Below, one piece after another: positions 1 through 33,825 of a stretch of 33,825 nucleotides of DNA (positions are counted from its first letter, which is position 1; each line of letters begins with the position of its first letter). The position numbers and the translations under genes are program-made. The stretch covers positions 1 through 33,825 of the forward strand of contig JAIXOQ010000016.1 of NCBI GenBank assembly GCA_027486675.1, given 5' to 3'. Under the pieces are notes generated by a model that was given only the letters and a program-made list of their open reading frames with translations, did no database searches and was not told where the DNA came from. The DNA comes from Pseudomonadota bacterium. Its GTDB lineage: Bacteria > Bdellovibrionota > UBA1018 > CAIMNF01.

Positions 1-1
1 C

Positions 2-73
2 GGACTCGAACAAAAGCTCGATCTCTTCTTTAAACTCTTAAAACAGGGAAAAAGCGGAAGGAAAGCGGCCTGA
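2..73 (+). CDS. C-terminal end of an unidentified protein (partial)
   Basis: Reading frame 2 is open from the window edge for 23 codons and ends in TGA at 71-73. The tail is rich in Leu, Phe and Lys, reads as an amphipathic helix (QKLDLFFKLLKQGKSG), and finishes with a basic stretch, which looks like a genuine protein end. The family cannot be told from so short a piece. It is the only plus-strand coding signal before 15450. Confidence 0.35.
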   Translation, partial: GLEQKLDLFFKLLKQGKSGRKAA

Positions 74-241
74 TTTAACGCCCTGCAGCTCGGTATCACT
101 CTTCAATGAGGTAATACGCTGGGCGCGGCCGCTCAATGAACTTGGTGATTTTTGCCAGACGGGTGTACCAAATGAAAATCCGGGCCAGCCGGGAAAATTC
201 CGGTCACCCCCCACTTCAACCCGCTGCCCCCCGGTTGCGCT
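74..241. other. Intergenic stretch with repeat copy, no gene seen
   Basis: Between the partial plus-strand gene and the end of the minus-strand secreted protein there is no convincing gene. It holds the first copy of the CCGGG/AAAATTCC repeat (180-208). A NotI-like GCGGCCGC lies near 125-132, but nothing around it looks like vector sequence. Confidence 0.5.
180..208 (-). repeat. Intergenic hairpin repeat, copy 1
   Basis: This copy shares the pattern GGCNNGCCGGGAAAATTCCNNTCACC with the stretch at 1095-1122, with only a few mismatches over 28 bases. A CCGG...CCGG inverted repeat is followed by the short GGAA/TTCC inverted repeat. Seen from the minus strand it lies about 33 bases after the stop of the secreted protein gene ending at 242. 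A 3'-UTR or terminator-like dispersed element is the simplest reading. There is no clear U-tract, so a classical terminator is not proven. Confidence 0.55.
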
Positions 242-9021: not shown

Positions 9022-10067
9022 TGATTTTCTTGGCCTGAATCCGGGGAAGTCGGGCTATTTTGCACGCCTCCTTGTCCAGGGTCCAGTAAGCGTGGGTCGA
9101 GTAAGGATCCATTGTCAACGGGCGCATTTGGAGTCTGTGAAGGGTTTTGTACCGGCGACGAAGGAGTGCCCTGTAAAGCACGCAATTCTTCGATCTCACT
9201 GCGAAGCTGCTTGAGTTCGTTGAGCTGCTCGGCACTGAAGTCTAACTTAGGCGTTGGTTTGGCCACGGGTGGTGGTTCCTGGGCTATAAATTTCGGTTGA
9301 TTGGTCACCGAACGGATCGTGAATTTTTCACTCTTGTGCTCTATTGTCCGGGGCTCTGAAGTTGCCGCTTGTGAAGTGACAGGTTGCGTTGCCGCCGGTG
9401 TGGGTTCCAGACCTGCGTTAGAGGTATTGTTCCAAAGACGCCCTGCGCCATAGCCGAGAGCACCGAGTCCGACGATCAGAAGGATAGGCTTAATGAGAGA
9501 TGTTTTTTGCGGCTTTCCTGCGTGGCCGCCCACGGAGGCCACCGATGTTTCGAGAGCCTGTTTCGTTTCTTGACGTTTACCACGAATATTTTGGTAGAGG
9601 TCGAGGAGTTGACCCACCGCAGCATCCCTGCCCTTGTCGAGGCGGCTCTCGGGTGGGCGCAGATTTTGATCCACTACCGACCTTGGGATTCTTGAGATGA
9701 AGGTATGCGCCATCGCGTGCGCTTCCTCTTCAATTTCATGGACCGGCTCGCTGGGGGCTCGCTCCTTGACACCAGTGATTTCATGACTATGCGCGGGTGG
9801 CTTGGGATCTCTTTGCGCTTCCTGATCTCGGATCTCTACTGGTCTGACTTTGGGGATAGTCGTTGTATTTGAGCTTTGAATTGCGGCATCTCTGAATGCT
9901 TTTTTGAGCCGCCATTCGATCATGGTTTGCCATTCCGGCTGATCTACCGAGTAGGAGATTTTATGATGAGGGAGCAGTTCCCCTTCCTTGAGAAGGGCAA
10001 CAATCTCTTCGTCATCGTAGGGTCCGGACCTCACGCCATCGAGGTCGAGAAACCACTGTTCTCCCAT
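9018..10067 (-). CDS. GYF-domain membrane protein
   Basis: The N-terminus (about residues 3-58) reads as a bacterial GYF_2 domain: WFLDLDGVRSGPYDDEEI, then an acidic/Leu helix and an EWQTM element. GYF domains bind Pro-rich peptides. A low-complexity charged linker follows, then one membrane segment at about 191-209 (a Leu/Gly-rich run after KTSLIK). The far end is Pro/Gln/Thr-rich and includes a short coiled coil (about 275-300, LNELKQLRSEIEELRALQG). The topology suggests a cytoplasmic GYF domain and a periplasmic tail. It sits 12 bases after the RND pump gene and overlaps tmk by 4, so it is cotranscribed with both. The role is unknown. Confidence 0.75.
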   Translation of the reverse strand: MGEQWFLDLDGVRSGPYDDEEIVALLKEGELLPHHKISYSVDQPEWQTMIEWRLKKAFRDAAIQSSNTTTIPKVRPVEIRDQEAQRDPKPPAHSHEITGVKERAPSEPVHEIEEEAHAMAHTFISRIPRSVVDQNLRPPESRLDKGRDAAVGQLLDLYQNIRGKRQETKQALETSVASVGGHAGKPQKTSLIKPILLIVGLGALGYGAGRLWNNTSNAGLEPTPAATQPVTSQAATSEPRTIEHKSEKFTIRSVTNQPKFIAQEPPPVAKPTPKLDFSAEQLNELKQLRSEIEELRALQGTPSSPVQNPSQTPNAPVDNGSLLDPRLLDPGQGGVQNSPTSPDSGQENQ

Positions 10068-10079
10068 GGACTTAGATTA

Positions 10080-13000
10080 TCACAAGGCCGTTTCAGCGCC
10101 CGAAACTCGGGTGCCAAATCTTTTTGCCCAAACCCGGAAACGATCCACGAACAGGTAAGCGCTTGGGACCAAGAACAGCGTGAAGAACATCGAAACCAAA
10201 AGGCCACCTACTATTGCGACCCCCATCGATGTCCGTTGTTTTGACGCTTCATTCAAGCCCAGCGCGACAGGAACCGTTCCAGCAACAAGAGCCATAGTGG
10301 TCATCAGGATGGGTCTGAGGCGGGTCTTTCCTGCTTCAATCATGGCCTGAATCCGGTCTGTGCCTTCCAGCACCCTCTGATTGGCGTAATCCACAAGCAG
10401 GATGGAGTTTTTCACGGACACCCCAAGCAGCATGATCATTCCGATCATGGAAAATATATTGAGGGACTCATTCATGAGCCAGAGGGCAGGGAGCGCGCCG
10501 ACTACAGTCGGTAGAGCCAGCATGATAGTGACTGGAGTGATGAACGATTCGTAGAGGCTGGCCAGAACGAGGAAGATGAAGATCACGCCGAAGATGATCG
10601 CAGTGACCATACTACCTAAAAGCTCCTGGAAGTTCTCTGCCTGACCTACGAACGCGTACCTGACACCAGTCGGGAGGTGAAGCTCGTCTTTTGGATCATT
10701 GAATCTTCGTTCGATGTCGCCCATGACTTCTCCCATTCCTTTACCTGGAGTGATGTCAGCTTGCACTTGAATGTAGCGCGAGCGATCCTGGCGATTGATC
10801 TTAGACGGACCTTCCGCTTGCTTCAGGGTCGCAACATCTTTGAGGCGAATGAGTGAGTTGTTTAAGTTGGGTACATACATTTGATCAAAACCTTCGCGGA
10901 TATTGCGTTGGTCTTCTTTTAAGCGGAGTCGTACATCGTACTCGCGGCCATCTTCGCGGTACTTTGCAGCGACATCTCCTTCAATGAGATTTCTGATTTC
11001 TAACCCAGCGCGTCCTGGATTCACACCTAAGGCCTGAGCCTTCGTCCGATCGAGTGCTACCTGAAGTTCAGGTTTTCCCGGCCTATAGTTCACATCTGTG
11101 TCTTTCAATGCAGGATGGGCTTTAAGCCATTTGAAAACCTTCTGTGCGTAAGGTTCAAGGACCGATTGATCCATACCCACGATATTGAGGTTAAACGGAC
11201 GCTGACCACCTCCAACGGCATCGTAGTCTTTCACCGCGGGATTCGCGAAGGCATAGGGCTTAAGCTGTTCACGGATGCGGTCCTTAAAGGCGATTGTATT
11301 GATTCTTCGCTCTTTGGATGGAACCAGCTTTACGTACATGCTCGATACATTGGCTTCGCCGTCTCTGCTTCCCGCGTTGGTTGCAACGATCGCAACTTCG
11401 GGATTTTCACGGATTTTGGCGTCTACTTCACGGGTCAGGCGATCCATTTCATCTAAGCTCGTGCCCGGTGGCAGATCGATTCCGACCTGGAATTCGCCTG
11501 CATCCTGAGGGGGCAGGAAAGTCTTAGGAACACGTGCGCCGAAGAATCCGGCCATGATGAAGACCACAGCAAGAATCCCGACGAGTTGCAAGAAGATCAA
11601 CTTCTGCGACTTCTTAAACCAAGTCGTCAGTATCGACTCGTATTTGTTTTCTAACCAATCTTGGAACTTTCCAAACTTTGCAGCGGCCTGATTCATGAAG
11701 TTTTTCTTCTGTTTGTGCGGGTCGCCTGCAAAATACGCCGAAAGCATAGGTGCAATCGTGAGCGCATCGAACAAAGAAATGATCATGGCAAAACACACCA
11801 CGAATCCAAATTGTTTGAAGAACTGCCCAACGACGCCTTTTAGGAATGCGACGGGACCAAAGACTGCAATTACGGTGAGTGTGGTAGCGATGACGGCAAG
11901 GGATACTTCTTTCGTCCCTTCAAGAGCCGCCTTAAGAGGGGATGCTCCCTTTTCTATGTGCCTAAATATGTTTTCCCGCACAACGATCGCATCGTCGATG
12001 AGGAGTCCGACAGAAAGCGAAAGCGCAAGCAGGGTCATGAGGTTAATGGTGTAACCCGCTGCCCACATCAAGATGAATGCCCCGATCAGAGAGTTCGGCA
12101 AAGCAAGCCCCGTGATCACAGTGGATCTGAAAGACCCCAGGAAGAAGTAAACGACGATGACGGCAAATAAAATCCCTAAGATGATCGACTCATAAACATC
12201 GGTCACGTTATTGCGAATATAGATCGAGCCATCGCGCACAATGGTGAGTTTCGTTGCCTTCTTTTGGGCTTCGAACTCGGCGTTTAGCTTTGTGATTCGC
12301 GCTTTGATGTTATCGACGACAGCAATTGTGTTCGCACCACTTTGTTTAAACACAAAAAGAAATAGCGACTTCTTTCCATTTAAGTAGACACGGGACTTTT
12401 CATCGACTTGTGAATCTGTGACCGTTGCAATGTCTTTTAGAGTGAGCGATCGATCGCCGCCAAAAAAATTCACGACTAAATTTCGAATCTCTTGAATCGA
12501 TTTAAATTCGCCTAAGGTGCGGATAACGCTCTCAGTTTTTGATTCTTCCAGTTTTCCGCCGGGGATGTTTTCTCCGGAGGACTTCAGAGTATCTAAGACT
12601 TGATTAGCGCTGAGTTCGCGCGCTTTCATCTTTGCGCGATCGAGCTCAATTTTGATTTCCCTTTTTCTAGCGCCGGCGACATAGACCAAGCCCACTTGCG
12701 GAACTTGTTCAATCCTAGGGCGAATGACTTCGTCAGCAATATCAAAAAGCTCGGTTTCACTGCCCTCGCCATTCACGCCCAGCATCATGATCGGTTGGTC
12801 AGATGGATCCAGTCTGCGTGTTGTTGGCTCCTCAATATCGTCAGGTAGACGGCGTTTAATCGAGGAGATTCGGTCTCGTATTTGTTGTTCGGCATCCTTG
12901 ATATCTACGCCGAGGTCAAATTCAGCGATGACTTGGCTCACGCCCTCTTGGCTGATGGAACTGATCCGCTTCATTCCTGAAATCGTGCTGAGTTCATCCT

Positions 13001-13202
13001 CAATGGGACGGGATACGAGGGTTTCAATCTCAGATGGGCCCGCACCTGGGTAGGGTACCTGCACGAAGATGATTGGAAAGGTGACGTCGGGAAAGAGATC
13101 GACTCCAAGGCGTTTCATCGCATAGCCGCCTACAGACAGCATAAGCAAAACAACACAGGTGATGAAGGTCGGTCTTTTGATAGATAGATCAGCGAGCGTC
13201 AT
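10080..13202 (-). CDS. RND-family (HAE1) efflux pump
   Basis: This inner-membrane pump of 1040 residues expels drugs or other hydrophobic compounds using proton flow. The start MTLADLSIKRPTFITCVVLL is a standard RND beginning, and GVDLFPDVTFPIIFVQVPYPG begins the first porter domain. The proton-relay pair DD lies in GLLIDDAIVVREN, and the matching Lys is in GVSVKNSILLVDYANQ. The AGxxPS-type and GxxxxxG helices are repeated, as expected for the internal duplication. A Shine-Dalgarno AGGGG lies 6 bases before ATG. The start overlaps the TolC-like gene end by 14 bases, which implies coupled translation. The usual adaptor (membrane fusion protein) is missing from this operon. Confidence 0.95.
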   Translation of the reverse strand: MTLADLSIKRPTFITCVVLLMLSVGGYAMKRLGVDLFPDVTFPIIFVQVPYPGAGPSEIETLVSRPIEDELSTISGMKRISSISQEGVSQVIAEFDLGVDIKDAEQQIRDRISSIKRRLPDDIEEPTTRRLDPSDQPIMMLGVNGEGSETELFDIADEVIRPRIEQVPQVGLVYVAGARKREIKIELDRAKMKARELSANQVLDTLKSSGENIPGGKLEESKTESVIRTLGEFKSIQEIRNLVVNFFGGDRSLTLKDIATVTDSQVDEKSRVYLNGKKSLFLFVFKQSGANTIAVVDNIKARITKLNAEFEAQKKATKLTIVRDGSIYIRNNVTDVYESIILGILFAVIVVYFFLGSFRSTVITGLALPNSLIGAFILMWAAGYTINLMTLLALSLSVGLLIDDAIVVRENIFRHIEKGASPLKAALEGTKEVSLAVIATTLTVIAVFGPVAFLKGVVGQFFKQFGFVVCFAMIISLFDALTIAPMLSAYFAGDPHKQKKNFMNQAAAKFGKFQDWLENKYESILTTWFKKSQKLIFLQLVGILAVVFIMAGFFGARVPKTFLPPQDAGEFQVGIDLPPGTSLDEMDRLTREVDAKIRENPEVAIVATNAGSRDGEANVSSMYVKLVPSKERRINTIAFKDRIREQLKPYAFANPAVKDYDAVGGGQRPFNLNIVGMDQSVLEPYAQKVFKWLKAHPALKDTDVNYRPGKPELQVALDRTKAQALGVNPGRAGLEIRNLIEGDVAAKYREDGREYDVRLRLKEDQRNIREGFDQMYVPNLNNSLIRLKDVATLKQAEGPSKINRQDRSRYIQVQADITPGKGMGEVMGDIERRFNDPKDELHLPTGVRYAFVGQAENFQELLGSMVTAIIFGVIFIFLVLASLYESFITPVTIMLALPTVVGALPALWLMNESLNIFSMIGMIMLLGVSVKNSILLVDYANQRVLEGTDRIQAMIEAGKTRLRPILMTTMALVAGTVPVALGLNEASKQRTSMGVAIVGGLLVSMFFTLFLVPSAYLFVDRFRVWAKRFGTRVSGAETAL

Positions 13203-14628
13203 AGGTGTCCCCTAAGGTCTTCAGTTGTGAATAGAGTTGGAAAGCTTCAGAGAGAGTTCTTGTGCGTAGTAATCTGGCCTGTGCGTAGTCTTGGTCAAAA
13301 AGCAGAACCTGATAGGTCGTAGTCCGTCCCAGATTCAGGCGTTCTCGTTCGCGGGCGAGTTTTCGTTGCTGGATGACTTCAAGTTTATCTAAAAGAGCGA
13401 TACGCTCGCGTGCGATTGAGAGTTTCTTTTTTAAATCAGCAAATTGCTGCTCTTCTTCTCGCTTTTGCTGAGTCAAGGACTCATCTGCACCGAGCTCTTG
13501 TTTCATTCTCCCCGCGCGCACATCCGATGCCTCTCCGATTGCAAGAGGCATAGAAAAACGAATCCCGGCGGCATAGTAGGGGTATTGAAGCGTGGTCGAA
13601 GTATTCATTGCATCGGCAAGTGCGCTATTGACGCCGTTCATGCCTGCTCTTGCAAAGAGATCCACGGTCGGTTTGGCGCGTTCCTTGGAGAGACGAGCGT
13701 TCGCTTGGATGATTTTGGTCGCTGCTTCCTGAGCATTGATCTGATCAGATGGTTTGGTGCGTGTGACGTTCAGTGCTGCTTCAGGTAATTCTGGAGTCTG
13801 AAGTTCTGGGGCTTGCGTATCCGCCGGTTGGCCGCGGATCACGTTGAAGTATTCATTCGCGCTGCGGACCTCATCGCGTGCTGCAATGATTTCTACCTGG
13901 CGCTGCTGGTAGGTGGCTTCTGCTTGAAGTGCGTCCGCGCTGTCAGAGAGATTCTTAGCCGCTCGATTGCGAGCCCAGGAAAAAATCTTTGCTGCCCGGT
14001 CTAAGAGATCCTCTTGGAGAGTCAGAATTTGGCGGGCAGACCAAAGGCGAGTGAAGGCATTTTCTGCTGCTGCAAGAGCCTGTTTTCGTTTGGCTGCATC
14101 ACCGAAGATCGAGGTTTCATTGCTCGCTTGGATGAGGTCCGCATTCGCACTAGCCTCAGATCCGAAGCCGTTTCGGTAAAGAGGCTGCGTAAGTTCAAGA
14201 TTAAAGCCTGTGTTCACATTCACGAGGGAGCCACCGGCAAAGATTACCGGTGACAGTCCTTGAATGGCGTTGTCTTGGATCGAATAGTAAAGACGTGAGG
14301 TCAGACCGAATCGAAAATCATTTTCTACCCCCAAGGAGGCCTGGCGGGACAAGGTTTGGCGGCCTTGAAAATTTGGGTTGGCGGTTTGCCGGCGGTCGTC
14401 GGAGTACAGAGCCTCCCCAAAAAGTTTTGGAAGGAAGAGCAACTTCGATTCGCCTTGGGCCTGCGTACTGCCCTGGCTCATTTGGGTTGTGCCGATGACA
14501 GTCCCATTTTTTTGTTCTATTTCTGCGAGGAACTCAGAAAGAGTAAGAGCGTTTGCCTCCGGAAAAACCGATATGGTGGTTGTGAATGCAAAAGCCAGCG
14601 CCAGTGTAATGAATGTATTGGGGTTCAT
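13189..14628 (-). CDS. TolC-like outer membrane efflux protein
   Basis: This 479-residue outer membrane factor would form the trimeric exit duct of the pump. A signal peptide of about 27 residues (Ala/Thr-rich, ending SVFPEANA) precedes two similar halves. Each half contains long heptad-type helices, for example AKRKQALAAAENAFTRLWSA and KKLSIARERIALLDKLEVIQ, with beta stretches such as FNLELTQPLYRNGFG. The second half ends with RTTTYQVLLFDQDYAQA, the usual OEP-family end pattern. GGAGG lies 8 bases before ATG. The ATG overlaps the TetR stop (ATGA), so regulator, channel and pump form one transcript. Confidence 0.9.
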   Translation of the reverse strand: MNPNTFITLALAFAFTTTISVFPEANALTLSEFLAEIEQKNGTVIGTTQMSQGSTQAQGESKLLFLPKLFGEALYSDDRRQTANPNFQGRQTLSRQASLGVENDFRFGLTSRLYYSIQDNAIQGLSPVIFAGGSLVNVNTGFNLELTQPLYRNGFGSEASANADLIQASNETSIFGDAAKRKQALAAAENAFTRLWSARQILTLQEDLLDRAAKIFSWARNRAAKNLSDSADALQAEATYQQRQVEIIAARDEVRSANEYFNVIRGQPADTQAPELQTPELPEAALNVTRTKPSDQINAQEAATKIIQANARLSKERAKPTVDLFARAGMNGVNSALADAMNTSTTLQYPYYAAGIRFSMPLAIGEASDVRAGRMKQELGADESLTQQKREEEQQFADLKKKLSIARERIALLDKLEVIQQRKLARERERLNLGRTTTYQVLLFDQDYAQARLLRTRTLSEAFQLYSQLKTLGDTYDAR

Positions 14629-15251
14629 GTTCGGGCCTCCTGAGCCATAAATCCGTGTAGGTGCACTTCGAGAATGTGTTGGATGATTTCTTTTCGATCC
14701 TGAGGATCTAGAAAGGATCTTTTAAAATAGATTTTTCGGAGCGGATCCATCCGCACAACCTCGATGAGGCTACCAATCAAATGTTCGGTGAGAAGTTCTG
14801 GTTTAAATGCTTTTTGAATGAACTGACGTTTTTGGGCGGCTGAAATGAATGTTTTTAGAATATCAAAACCCTGCATCACGCTTTGTTTAAATGCCTCTTC
14901 CGTTTCTGGCCTTCGCATCATGCAGTCGCGGAGAATAATGGTCGAGAGGTCTGCGTTAGAGGCGTGCGATTCCAGGAAGTACTCCATCCAAAGTTTGAGT
15001 TTGAAGCGGAACTCTTCAGCAGATTCCGCCTCCGTGAGCATAGTCGCGGAGCGGAGAATCTTGTCCTCGCGGAAGCGGTGGATTACCCCACTGTAAAGAC
15101 CTTCTTTGCCGCCGAAGTAATAGCTCACCAAACTCACGTTCACATCGGCTGCTTTGGCGAGGTCTTGAATGGTGGCGCCATCAAAGCCTCTCTCTGCGAA
15201 TAGTTTTTCGGCAGCGTCGAGTAGTGCAGTTTTGGAGTCTTGCTTGGTCAC
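14625..15251 (-). CDS. TetR-family transcriptional regulator
   Basis: This is a 208-residue regulator with the N-terminal TetR helix-turn-helix: LLDAAEKLFAERGFDGATIQ, then DLAKAADVNVSLVSYYFGGK. The C-terminal ligand domain resembles that of CerR/YcfQ-like regulators; this is by impression, not by search. The start is GTG at 15251 with only a weak Shine-Dalgarno. It is the first gene of the efflux operon and lies beside the repeat array at 15306-15426. It probably represses its own operon and responds to pump substrates, the usual role for TetR proteins beside RND genes. No clear operator besides the repeats was found. Confidence 0.9.
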   Translation of the reverse strand: MTKQDSKTALLDAAEKLFAERGFDGATIQDLAKAADVNVSLVSYYFGGKEGLYSGVIHRFREDKILRSATMLTEAESAEEFRFKLKLWMEYFLESHASNADLSTIILRDCMMRRPETEEAFKQSVMQGFDILKTFISAAQKRQFIQKAFKPELLTEHLIGSLIEVVRMDPLRKIYFKRSFLDPQDRKEIIQHILEVHLHGFMAQEART

Positions 15252-15305: not shown

Positions 15306-15426
15306 CCGTGACCGGCCACGGGGTCGGAACGGTTGAGGCTGGCCACGAGATTGAGGCGATTGCGGCTGGCCACGGACCCGGGAGTTCGGCTGGCCACGAT
15401 GTAGGGGCGTCCGTGGCCGGCCACGG
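15306..15426. repeat. Array of five GGCYGGCCACG units between divergent genes
   Basis: Five 11-base units of the form GRCYGGCCACG begin at 15310, 15337, 15364, 15388 and 15415, at spacings 27, 27, 24 and 27. The outer two sit inside 16-bp palindromes: CCGTGACCGGCCACGG (15306-15321, one mismatch) and CCGTGGCCGGCCACGG (15411-15426, perfect). The array fills most of the gap between the TetR gene and the plus-strand secreted-protein gene. It may be an operator array, a structural repeat or a minisatellite. Both strands stay open in frame, giving 9-residue WPA or AGH repeats, but no start signal supports translation. Confidence 0.75.
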
Positions 15427-15449: not shown

Positions 15450-16277
15450 ATGTTGATCTTTTTCGCTTTGGTTTTCGTCGGGAGCAATACGTTTGCAGCA
15501 ACCGACTATTCTTGTTTTGAGGCCTACTTTGCACGTGTAGACCGCATGAAGTCCTATTCAACAATCATGGAAAAGCGGGAATACGATTTTGATGGAGACC
15601 AAACCAATGACAACCGCATGCGTGTCGAAGGGTTTAAGCCCAATCGGGTACGGGTCACGTATCTGAACGGGGCTTCGACAGGCATTAAAGGCAGCGGTTT
15701 TGTCGCCGAATATGATGGGTCACCAGAAGTGAAGTTCCAGCTCGGCGAATCGAGCGGACTGGGATCCCTTGTGAAAGGAATGGCTTCGCTCTTTGCTGGG
15801 AAATCCATGCAAATCGACGACAGCAATAGTTTGCGTGGCGAGTATTTCACGATCAACAACGCAGGATTTTTTCCTGTTGCCCAAATGCTTCGAACCCAAG
15901 TGGCTTGGGTCAAGGGCTCTCCGCGTGGAGGTTTCACCAACCGCGAGGGCGACCGATGCAAGTACCACTACGAACGCCATACAGACGAGGAAGTGATTCG
16001 AGAGATCGCTCCCTCAGCTTCGATCTTTGATCTTGAGAAAGAATTTGCGACTTATGCCTTCTTGATCCAGCTCAATAACCGAGATCAGTTCTCCTCGCTC
16101 TATGACCTCTTTCATCGAAAGAAAACTGTGACCATCCGCATTCCTAGATGGTTTTATGATTTCGATGTGGAAATTGATCCAGCGAATCACTTGCTGAAGC
16201 GGGTTGTCTTTTATCAGAACAAAAAAATCTTTGCGGACTACCTCTATAGCAAGGTGGAGTCAATCGAAGCCTTGTGA
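15450..16277 (+). CDS. Secreted DUF1571-like protein
   Basis: This 275-residue protein has a short signal peptide (MLIFFALVFVGSNTFAATDY), so it is exported. The mature part matches the general layout of DUF1571-type proteins: an early Y-S-x-x-x-x-KREYDFDGD segment, a FKPNRVRVTYL stretch, a Gly-rich region, and TINNAGFFPVAQM near the middle. It ends in beta strands related to lipid-binding folds. This family label is from memory of motifs and is moderate. The start has a weak ribosome site. The end overlaps the convergent GNAT gene by 18 bases. Confidence 0.7.
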   Translation: MLIFFALVFVGSNTFAATDYSCFEAYFARVDRMKSYSTIMEKREYDFDGDQTNDNRMRVEGFKPNRVRVTYLNGASTGIKGSGFVAEYDGSPEVKFQLGESSGLGSLVKGMASLFAGKSMQIDDSNSLRGEYFTINNAGFFPVAQMLRTQVAWVKGSPRGGFTNREGDRCKYHYERHTDEEVIREIAPSASIFDLEKEFATYAFLIQLNNRDQFSSLYDLFHRKKTVTIRIPRWFYDFDVEIDPANHLLKRVVFYQNKKIFADYLYSKVESIEAL

Positions 16278-19610: not shown

Positions 19611-20597
19611 CTACGAAGAGGCGAGCTCTCTTTTAAAGGTCTCTCTGAGCTTTGCAATGACTCCCGCTTCGATCTGGCGCACACGCTCGCGCGTTAATCC
19701 ATAGAGATCGGCTACCTCTTGGAGGGTTTTGGGCTCCTCAGCCAAAAGCCGTTCCTCCAGAACGACCAGCTCGCGATCATTCAAAGTCTTTCGCAGTTCC
19801 GGCAGTTGTTTTTCTAAAAGCTCTAGCCACTGCTCGCGTGAAATTCGAGCCTCGAGGTTCTCTGCGGGGTCGACCAAGGTTTGCGCCAACGAGAATCCCG
19901 AATCCTCGCCCCCGATGGGCGCATCGATAGAGACTTCGGCTTTGCCGCTCAGCATGCGTTGCTCCATCTCGATGATGTCTTTCTCTTTCACATGTAAGTT
20001 TTCAGCGAGCAGCTTTGGTCCTGGGAAAATTCCTTGCGCCTCAAGCCGCTGCTTTTCACGCACCAGATGGTAGAAGAGTTTTTTCTGCGCGGCCGAAGTG
20101 CCGACACGGACAAGCCGAAAGTTATCTAGGATGTACTTTAAGATATAGGAGCGAATCCACCACGTTGCGTAGTAAGCCAAACGCGCGCCTTTGTCTGGGT
20201 CAAACTTGGATACCGCCTTCATCAGACCAATGTTGCCTTCCTGAATGAGGTCCATCAGGTTTGTGTAGATCGAGCGGTATTCGTAAGCAATTCGGACGAC
20301 CGTTTTTAGATTTGCGCTGACTAAGAGTTTTGCGGCATCGACATCCCCTTCATCTAAGAGACGACGAGCCAGGCGATTTTCCTCTTCAGGCGTCAGTTCT
20401 GCCGAGTTCCGAATCGTGCGTAAGTATTGTTTGAGAGGATCACTGGAGATCGAAACCGCAGGCTTAGGCTCGGTCGAAAGAGCTTTCGACTGCTGAGGAA
20501 CAACGGATCGCGCAGGTGAGCCCTTGCGCGATTTTTTTGGGCTCTTATTCGATTTCACAGGAGCTAGTAGTTTCGCTGAAAATGCCACGCAGAGCAA
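19611..20597 (-). CDS. rpoH: RpoH-like alternative sigma factor
   Basis: This sigma-70-family factor would direct RNA polymerase to a special promoter set, probably heat shock. Region 2 reads LMDLIQEGNIGLMKAVSKFD, then the WWIRSYILKYILDNFRLVR stretch. The RpoH box is visible as AAQKKLFYHLVREKQRL. Region 4 ends TRERVRQIEAGVIAKL. It starts with TTG at 20597, supported by AGGGG six bases upstream; no ATG start is available nearby. The first 50 residues are a Lys/Ser/Pro-rich extension beyond the E. coli RpoH start, giving 328 residues against 284. It is the first of the sigma-rpsO-pnp run. The promoter set it controls cannot be told here. Confidence 0.85.
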   Translation of the reverse strand: MLCVAFSAKLLAPVKSNKSPKKSRKGSPARSVVPQQSKALSTEPKPAVSISSDPLKQYLRTIRNSAELTPEEENRLARRLLDEGDVDAAKLLVSANLKTVVRIAYEYRSIYTNLMDLIQEGNIGLMKAVSKFDPDKGARLAYYATWWIRSYILKYILDNFRLVRVGTSAAQKKLFYHLVREKQRLEAQGIFPGPKLLAENLHVKEKDIIEMEQRMLSGKAEVSIDAPIGGEDSGFSLAQTLVDPAENLEARISREQWLELLEKQLPELRKTLNDRELVVLEERLLAEEPKTLQEVADLYGLTRERVRQIEAGVIAKLRETFKRELASS

Positions 20598-26704: not shown

Positions 26705-27415
26705 TTATTCGAAGATCACTTGGTAGGCTAGAAAGCTTAGTGCTTTAGCCGTTGGCAATGTGAGGGCGCCCGCCTCGGTGTACATAGAAAAAAGTGCGGT
26801 TGCCGCTTGCCGTTCGTCTAAGGTACAGGTGGCGTCATCGCGTGTGCATTCAGAAAGACGGGCTAAATCTGCGGTACAGTCCCCGTCGATCACCCTGAAT
26901 ACACGTAAATCCAAATTTAGCCTGCCTGCGATATCAAGCACATCTCCGCCAGGGGTCGTGAATGGTGCAAGTTCGCGGCGATCTAAGTTACCGCTTTGGT
27001 AAAGTTGCACTTGGGTCTGGCAGGCCGGATCTTTCCAAAGAGTCACAACATCAGAATAGGCTTCAAAGGCTACAGTCGAGTCGGTCACTGTAGTTTCTTG
27101 TCCGACCGGGTCTTCGTTCGTGCTAAAGAAAATTGGATTTTCTGGCTGGCCTAAAATCGGCGTGATCAGGCCGACCGGGTCCGTAAAAATATTGGTCACA
27201 CTGGTAGGGATTGTATTGAGAGGGGCATCGACGCTGTCGATGGAGTCATCGGTGTAGGCTGCATATAGCGCGTATGCGGTTGGTACGGCCCGGAAGTACT
27301 CAGATTTATATCCTGGTGGTGGGGCAACGGGTGTCCCTTCGTAGTTCCCGAATCGGCAGCCCGCAAGTGTAGCCAAGATGATCAGCGAACCTATTCTTCG
27401 AGTGGACAAGCTCAC
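26705..27415 (-). CDS. Predicted lipoprotein, unknown function
   Basis: The protein starts at GTG 27415, supported by AGGGAGG five bases ahead; the in-frame stretch up to 27574 runs into repeat DNA and is rejected as coding. The signal peptide ends in the lipobox LAGC, so the mature protein is lipid-anchored. It is then Pro- and acid-rich, with the marks YFRAVPTAYALYAAYTDDS and several Cys in the second half, one pair in SECTRDDATCTLDE. No known domain was recognised; 236 residues. It leads to rdgB and starts beside repeat region 2. Confidence 0.7.
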   Translation of the reverse strand: MSLSTRRIGSLIILATLAGCRFGNYEGTPVAPPPGYKSEYFRAVPTAYALYAAYTDDSIDSVDAPLNTIPTSVTNIFTDPVGLITPILGQPENPIFFSTNEDPVGQETTVTDSTVAFEAYSDVVTLWKDPACQTQVQLYQSGNLDRRELAPFTTPGGDVLDIAGRLNLDLRVFRVIDGDCTADLARLSECTRDDATCTLDERQAATALFSMYTEAGALTLPTAKALSFLAYQVIFE

Positions 27416-27715
27416 GTGAACCTCCCTGTTCACATGACTTGTCGGTTTAGGCTGGCCTAAACTCGATCGGCAATGATTGCCCGTGGCCGGCCACGGGGAT
27501 GTGGGGTGGCCACGGGCCTGGGGTTTTAGGCTAGCCAGGTATTGGTGGGTTCCTCTGGCCCTGGCCAGCCACAAGGGAGTGGAATGCTGGCCTGGGTGGC
27601 CGGCCAGGAATCACCGCACCCTAGCCTCGTGGCCGGCAACGCCATAAAAAACTCAGGTACTCTGCATCAAAATACCTTTGGATCAGAGCAGGGCTTGGCG
27701 TGATAAAGGGAAGCA
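27416..27715. other. 300-base gap between divergent genes, mostly repeat DNA
   Basis: No gene is supported here. The left two-thirds hold the GGCC-rich repeat region (27449-27642). The right part (about 27640-27715) is AT-richer and carries the ribosome site AAGGGA for the DUF952 gene. Promoters for both divergent genes must lie here, but none could be picked with confidence. Confidence 0.6.
27449..27642. repeat. GGCC-rich palindromic repeat region 2
   Basis: It holds many GGCTGGCC/GGCCACG-like units: GGCTGGCC (27450s), the perfect 16-bp palindrome CCGTGGCCGGCCACGG (27481-27496), GTGGCCACGG, GGCTAGCCAGG, CTGGCCAGCCAC, GGTGGCCGGCCAGG and CGTGGCCGGCAACG. The 16-bp palindrome is identical to the one at 15411-15426. 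The spacing here is irregular (about 19, 25 and 30 bases, then uneven). It lies between divergent genes like region 1. Confidence 0.7.
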
Positions 27716-28075
27716 ATGTTCATTTATCATCTTGTGACCCAGTCCGATTGGGAGACCGCAGCTTTGAGTGGGTCCTACCAACCCACATCTCTGACTACAG
27801 ATGGGTTCATCCATGCCTCGACCGACTCTCAGCTGCTTCCTGTGGCCAACCTGTTTTACAAAGGAGCGCGACAGCTTTTTGTCCTAAAACTCGACCCCGC
27901 AAAGATGAAAACCCCGGTAAAATTTGAAGATCCAGTGCCCCCAGCTCCGGGCTTCCCTCCAAATGAAAAGTTCCCTCACATTTATGGTGCGATTCTGGTG
28001 TCTGAGGTTTTAGAAGTCTTTGCGCTCGTCCAAAATTCCGATGGTGAGTTCCTGTGGCCCGGGGCAATTCGGTGA
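27716..28075 (+). CDS. DUF952-family protein
   Basis: This is a 119-residue cytoplasmic protein with the full DUF952 pattern: IYHLVTQSDWETAALSGSY, then DGFIHASTDSQLLPVANLFY, then LKLDP and FPHIYGAI. It has been likened to a glutathione S-transferase-related or ADP-ribosyl-type fold, but no reaction is known for the family. AAGGGA lies five bases before the ATG. The end overlaps the cupin gene start as GTGA, so translation is coupled. Confidence 0.9.
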   Translation: MFIYHLVTQSDWETAALSGSYQPTSLTTDGFIHASTDSQLLPVANLFYKGARQLFVLKLDPAKMKTPVKFEDPVPPAPGFPPNEKFPHIYGAILVSEVLEVFALVQNSDGEFLWPGAIR

Positions 28076-33622: not shown

Positions 33623-33825
33623 GGCTTCTCTTGTTTGCTGCATACGCATGGGGACTATAGCTCAGAACAGCGCAATAGTAAACTAAAATAGTCAGAAACT
33701 GTAAGGGCGAATTGCCTCGTAATGAATTCGACCGAGCTGTGGTGCGTTAATAGTGAGGAAACGGCTCGTTACCTCATAATCAGGTTTTGAACCCAATATG
33801 ACCCGGACCATCCGGGCGAAAGGAC
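33623..33825. other. Intergenic stretch at the window end, no gene seen
   Basis: No supported gene and no tRNA was found. It holds an inverted repeat CCCGGA/TCCGGG around CCA at 33802-33816, which resembles the CCGG-type hairpins at 180-208 and 1095-1122 but is followed by CGAAAGGAC in place of AAAATTCC. Confidence 0.5.
33802..33816. repeat. Inverted repeat related to the intergenic hairpin family
   Basis: A perfect 6-bp stem CCCGGA/TCCGGG surrounds a three-base CCA loop. It shares the CCCGG...CCGGG shape of the other two copies near the left end of the window. The flank differs, so membership in the family is tentative. Confidence 0.4.

Follow-up and report, generated by a model that had tools for sequence, protein, structure and literature searches.

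Two gaps between divergent genes in a Bdellovibrionota genome contain the same perfect 16-bp palindrome, CCGTGGCCGGCCACGG, at positions 15411-15426 and 27481-27496 of the DNA analysed here (33,825 nucleotides, the whole of contig C21; hereafter the window). The original prediction was that this palindrome belongs to a dispersed family tied to intergenic regions, with related but irregularly spaced units around it. The locus thus raises the question of whether the palindrome forms a genuine family, where in the chromosome its members lie and what might recognise them.

Palindromic arrays in the window

Each of the two palindromes is part of an array. Array 1 (15306-15426) is composed of five units, whose successive centres are separated by 27, 27, 24 and 27 bp. 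Array 2 (27450-27641) contains at least seven, the clear ones being 35, 35 and 33 bp apart with more degenerate ones between them, and here GGCTGGCC, GGTGGCCGGCCAGG and CGTGGCCGGCAACG were found where they had been placed (27450, 27595 and 27628). The sites and flanking genes are as follows.

9521-9534, no strand: isolated one-mismatch site CGTGGCCGCCCACG within an open reading frame (ORF), which may be a chance match
14625-15251, minus strand: TetR-family regulator gene adjoining array 1 and preceding RND efflux genes
15306-15321, no strand: array 1 unit CCGTGACCGGCCACGG, one mismatch
15337-15347, no strand: array 1 asymmetric unit GGCTGGCCACG, its centre 27 bp beyond that of the preceding unit
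15364-15375, no strand: array 1 asymmetric unit GGCTGGCCACGG, its centre 27 bp beyond that of the preceding unit
15388-15398, no strand: array 1 asymmetric unit GGCTGGCCACG, its centre 24 bp beyond that of the preceding unit
15411-15426, no strand: array 1 perfect 16-bp palindrome CCGTGGCCGGCCACGG, its centre 27 bp beyond that of the preceding unit
15450-16277, plus strand: exported-protein gene right of array 1, with a signal-peptide-like start and no Pfam match
26705-27418, minus strand: lipoprotein gene left of array 2, with lipobox LAGC and no Pfam match
27450-27457, no strand: array 2 partial unit GGCTGGCC
27481-27496, no strand: array 2 perfect 16-bp palindrome CCGTGGCCGGCCACGG
27506-27516, no strand: array 2 overlapping half-sites GTGGCCACGGG, a degenerate unit read from the sequence
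27529-27539, no strand: array 2 degenerate unit GGCTAGCCAGG, read from the sequence
27562-27571, no strand: array 2 unit TGGCCAGCCA
27595-27608, no strand: array 2 unit GGTGGCCGGCCAGG, two mismatches
27628-27641, no strand: array 2 unit CGTGGCCGGCAACG, one mismatch
27716-28075, plus strand: gene for a DUF952 protein, to the right of array 2

An ORF with a TTG start (26705-27574) extends into array 2. A better start for the lipoprotein is likely to be the GTG at about 27415, which lies behind an RBS-like GGGAGG and would make array 2 intergenic. An Rfam search of the window returned no matches, indicating no known structured RNA over the arrays. Elsewhere in the window a 32-nt near-repeat (81%) at 177-208 and 1091-1122 flanks an ORF (242-952); one copy contains GGCCAGCC and the other GGCTGGCC, each followed by GGGAAAATTCC, which occurs a third time at 20023.

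The palindrome family is real and far above chance

Allowing up to one mismatch, TGGCCGGCCA was found seven times in the window against 0.95 expected, and none of 100 shuffles reached seven; equality with the shuffled expectation, which would have spoken against a family, was not what we observed. The draft genome comprises 2.70 Mb in 33 contigs, and pattern searches across it gave 11 exact matches to CGTGGCCGGCCACG, rising to 23 when one mismatch was allowed, with none for a reversed-pattern control. With up to two mismatches there were 35 matches (8 in the reversed control), and the looser word GTGGCCRGCC was matched 53 times (4 in the control). Sites with zero to two mismatches were in excess of background while those with three or four were at or near it, indicating a discrete motif rather than compositional drift. 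In the four contigs where the sites accumulate (below), GTGGCCGGCCAC is present in 13 copies (26 counted over both strands) compared with 0.03 expected under a third-order Markov model, whereas neither GTGGCCGGCCAC nor TGGCCGGCCA was among the over-represented palindromes of a 200 kb control stretch (C23:1-200k).

The consensus is CCGTGGCC[G/A]GCCACGG, and weaker units retain one intact half, GGCCACG. Only a core of 12-16 bp is conserved, the flanks being unrelated, and graded, degenerate copies are numerous around the strong ones.

This abundance appears to be particular to one genome. Twelve genomes of the same family contained 0-2 sites each, and the array pattern was absent from the 54 other genomes of the order (55 searched); no relative at family or order level is as rich in the motif, so evolutionary conservation cannot be cited in its support. 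The best relatives of the PNPase were mostly from Bdellovibrionales and Oligoflexia metagenome-assembled genomes. Among viral contigs the exact 16-mer was found only as single scattered matches, and distant-similarity blastn searches, run with array 2 on plasmids and with array 1 on phages, returned no match. Searching the literature for the sequence itself yielded, judging by titles and abstracts, unrelated subjects only. A different word, GTGACCGG, seemed enriched in the related genomes G002 and G005; it was rejected because the listed sites were non-palindromic and many resembled ordinary coding words.

Sites are confined to one region of the chromosome

The family proved to be regional and not dispersed genome-wide as had been proposed. 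Of the 23 sites with no more than one mismatch, 22 fall within about 203 kb (C6:1-25k, C16, C21 and C23:200-233k), equivalent to 7.5% of the 2.7 Mb genome; the binomial p is about 4e-24, an upper estimate of surprise because the interval borders were drawn after the sites had been seen.

The position of this region was approached through relatives. In G002, orthologues of C6:10-48k, C16:4-56k and C23:216-224k are consecutive at 441-572 kb of a single contig (C2), on which dnaA lies at 209 kb and the GC skew switches at about 200 kb. Measured from dnaA, the orthologous segments are at about 233-355 kb, on one arm of that chromosome, the order of the contigs in the genome under study being incomplete. 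In G005 the segments have the same order, and C16:98-110k continues straight into C21 (on G005 contig C11). The stretch C16:56-98k is not collinear with relatives and contigs are broken at insertion-sequence copies, so the exact contig order is only inferred. On present evidence the region probably occupies part of one arm, away from the origin and, to judge from the relatives, also from the terminus.

Both ends of the window (1-119 and 33715-33825) are ends of one insertion sequence, of which a full copy of about 1.2 kb is located at C6:48.4-49.7k. Its left end was found at eight places, mostly contig ends, indicating that the assembly breaks at copies of this element. A possible dif-like site noticed by eye near C6:19.1k was rejected, as neither a dif match (in the four contigs or the genome) nor a skew flip was detected.

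Placement and spacing of the sites

Of the 22 regional sites, nine are intergenic, against an expected share of about 10% (p about 1e-4), and 13 lie within ORFs. The proposed tie to intergenic regions therefore survives as a moderate enrichment, with over half of the sites inside ORFs. Divergent genes flank both window arrays, as had been noted, and also the site at C6:19291. This is not a rule: there is no clear preference for divergent gaps, since sites were also found between co-directional genes (C16:79.3k and C23:213.1k), between convergent genes (C6:20.6k), and in gene bodies and gene tails.

The spacing is less irregular than first described. Among adjacent core distances within clusters, 16 of 20 are 22-27 or 33-35 bp, a proportion that none of 100,000 uniform simulations reached, although the distance classes were picked after the data had been seen and uniform spacing is a simple null. 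The two classes are about one helical turn apart, the phase signal alone being weak (Rayleigh p about 0.02). Spacers between units are mutually unrelated in sequence, indicating that the clusters are not recent tandem duplications.

Coding sites were written by substitution

Sites inside genes permit comparison with homologous proteins. Three occur in a gene at C16:47882-49120 that we take to be of the NIF3 family, and the corresponding stretches have the same lengths as in 29 homologues; the residues here and in homologues read IPEPVAGHVKEAL and IPVDHFEAVRDAL, GTFRGQPGSS and GNFRPLKGAS, and GYGVAGHLKSP and GYGFVAELKKP, respectively. Two adjacent genes at C16:30k, presumably upp-like and hpt-like (all three gene names are our own reading of the sequences), carry one site each without an indel relative to homologues. 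Thus at five of five alignable coding sites there is neither insertion nor deletion and the palindrome replaces residues, showing that it arose through base substitutions where the protein tolerates change. Such in-place substitution argues for selection on the DNA motif, and a directed mutational process could also produce it.

A candidate region-marking system and its rivals

The explanation we favour, and to which we assign a little under an even chance, is that the palindrome is the recognition site of a putative dimeric, sequence-specific protein serving the whole region. A dimeric, cooperative binder would be the simplest cause, as suggested by the two-fold symmetry, the half-site degeneracy and the spacing. 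Such a protein would recognise the palindrome, neighbouring dimers would bind the clusters cooperatively, and single strong sites would be scattered over roughly 200 kb. The resulting complex would act on the region as a whole and not on one promoter, compacting, bridging or anchoring the domain much as MatP does through matS and RacA through ram; we infer this from the regional confinement together with the sites within gene bodies. Several points weigh against it: the region probably lies outside the origin and, judging by relatives, the terminus, where the best-known domain-marking sites concentrate; no relative in the family or order has the motif at comparable density; the contig order is a reconstruction; the helical-phase signal is weak; and several clusters also occupy operator-like positions.

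It is tempting to go further and propose a new chromosome-domain system in this Bdellovibrionota lineage, in which a putative cooperative dimer marks about 200 kb of mid-arm DNA via CCGTGGCCGGCCACGG arrays and scattered strong copies, with selection overwriting protein-coding sequence. We regard this fuller proposal as somewhat unlikely. To our knowledge, region-marking site systems are few in bacteria and mostly act at the origin or terminus. If the proposal were true, it would suggest one more protein that organises a domain or acts on a specific region, and a DNA signal that overrides protein sequence in conserved enzymes. The exact site sequences could be used to pull out the putative binding protein.

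The main rival is that the clusters are operator arrays of a transcription factor, for example the TetR protein encoded beside array 1, controlling a local gene set, with the sites in genes being spill-over or intragenic operators. Arrays 1 and 2 and the site at C6:19.3k do lie in divergent gaps, intergenic DNA is enriched, the TetR gene adjoins array 1, and same-family relatives that lack the sites also lack a close TetR homologue. A promoter operator would not, however, need sites in a convergent gap, in the NIF3, upp-like and hpt-like gene bodies or in gene tails, and this speaks for the region-wide reading; the promoter-only placement expected of a regulon is not what was found, with 13 of 22 sites in ORFs and one intergenic site between convergent genes. 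Moreover, the flanking genes have no evident common function, a regulon leaves the regional confinement unexplained, and neither array yielded a sigma-70-like promoter (the organism's own promoters may differ). We consider the operator explanation unlikely.

Alternatively, a local mutation or conversion process might write the motif, either templated short-patch conversion or region-restricted biased repair, with no selected function. Graded degenerate copies surrounding strong ones and the restriction to one genome among its relatives, like a recent burst, are consistent with this. Yet the spacers are unrelated while the spacing is constrained, the coding sites keep reading frame and protein length, and we know of no process that writes a motif regionally in this way. 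Such an origin seems distinctly improbable.

The 14-16 bp palindromes in clusters, in a genome with further ParB-domain proteins, recall parS centromere sites of a ParB-type partition system. The genome has two parS-like TGTTCCACGTGGAACA palindromes elsewhere, however, at C13:324509-324655 by parB (C13:322.9k) and about 28 kb from dnaA (C13:353k); TGTTCCACGTGGAACA is a variant of the bacterial parS consensus and differs from the palindrome studied here. As the hotspot region also has no ParB-domain gene, we give this interpretation very little credence. Separately, C22:22-33k holds three ParB-domain matches in about 10 kb and may be a mobile element or one resembling a plasmid.

Inserted REP, BIME or RPE-type palindromes would likewise be dispersed, palindromic and enriched between genes, but the idea is largely refuted and the least credible of all, because the motif arose by substitution at the five alignable coding sites, which excludes insertion elements there, and because the core is merely 12-16 bp with unrelated flanks and is restricted to one region.

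Comparison with known systems

We do not claim membership of a known family for the palindrome. SlmA sites and the RBM motifs of RefZ are palindromes that TetR-family proteins bind and that are unevenly distributed along the chromosome (PMC3116907, PMC6657595). The sites described here share the palindromic form and the uneven distribution, and the TetR gene beside array 1 (14625-15251) had the RefZ model as its best match. Its score of 73.9 bits is far under the equivalog cut-off of 180 and, unlike RefZ, it stands ahead of efflux genes; the palindrome is also unrelated to the SlmA 12-mer. Pfam searches of the region's genes revealed no obvious dedicated DNA-binding protein besides this TetR, which we consider a weak candidate for the putative binding protein. 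The TetR and RND efflux stretch (10080-15251) has no collinear counterpart in G005 between conserved neighbours, indicating gain here or loss there.

HIP1, DNA uptake sequences and similar over-represented words are short and tolerated in coding sequence. The palindrome is similarly tolerated inside genes but, whereas those words occur genome-wide, it is confined to 7.5% of the genome.

The ram motif, recognised by RacA, is a clustered, GC-rich inverted repeat of 14 bp. RacA sites of Bacillus subtilis have a high regional density, and the oligomerising protein condenses and anchors the chromosome (PMC6593407). Regionally dense chromosomal sites are common to both systems, although RacA sites are most concentrated at the origin, with others elsewhere, differ in sequence and belong to a spore-forming Bacillus.

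Finally, matS, the MatP site of the E. coli Ter macrodomain, is a 13-bp palindromic motif with 23 copies in one chromosome region (PMC3116907). The palindrome differs from matS in sequence, in forming clusters with 22-27 bp spacing and in a region that is mid-arm in relatives and not at the terminus; like matS, it is a region-confined palindrome, its 22 sites (one mismatch or none) being spread over about 203 kb.
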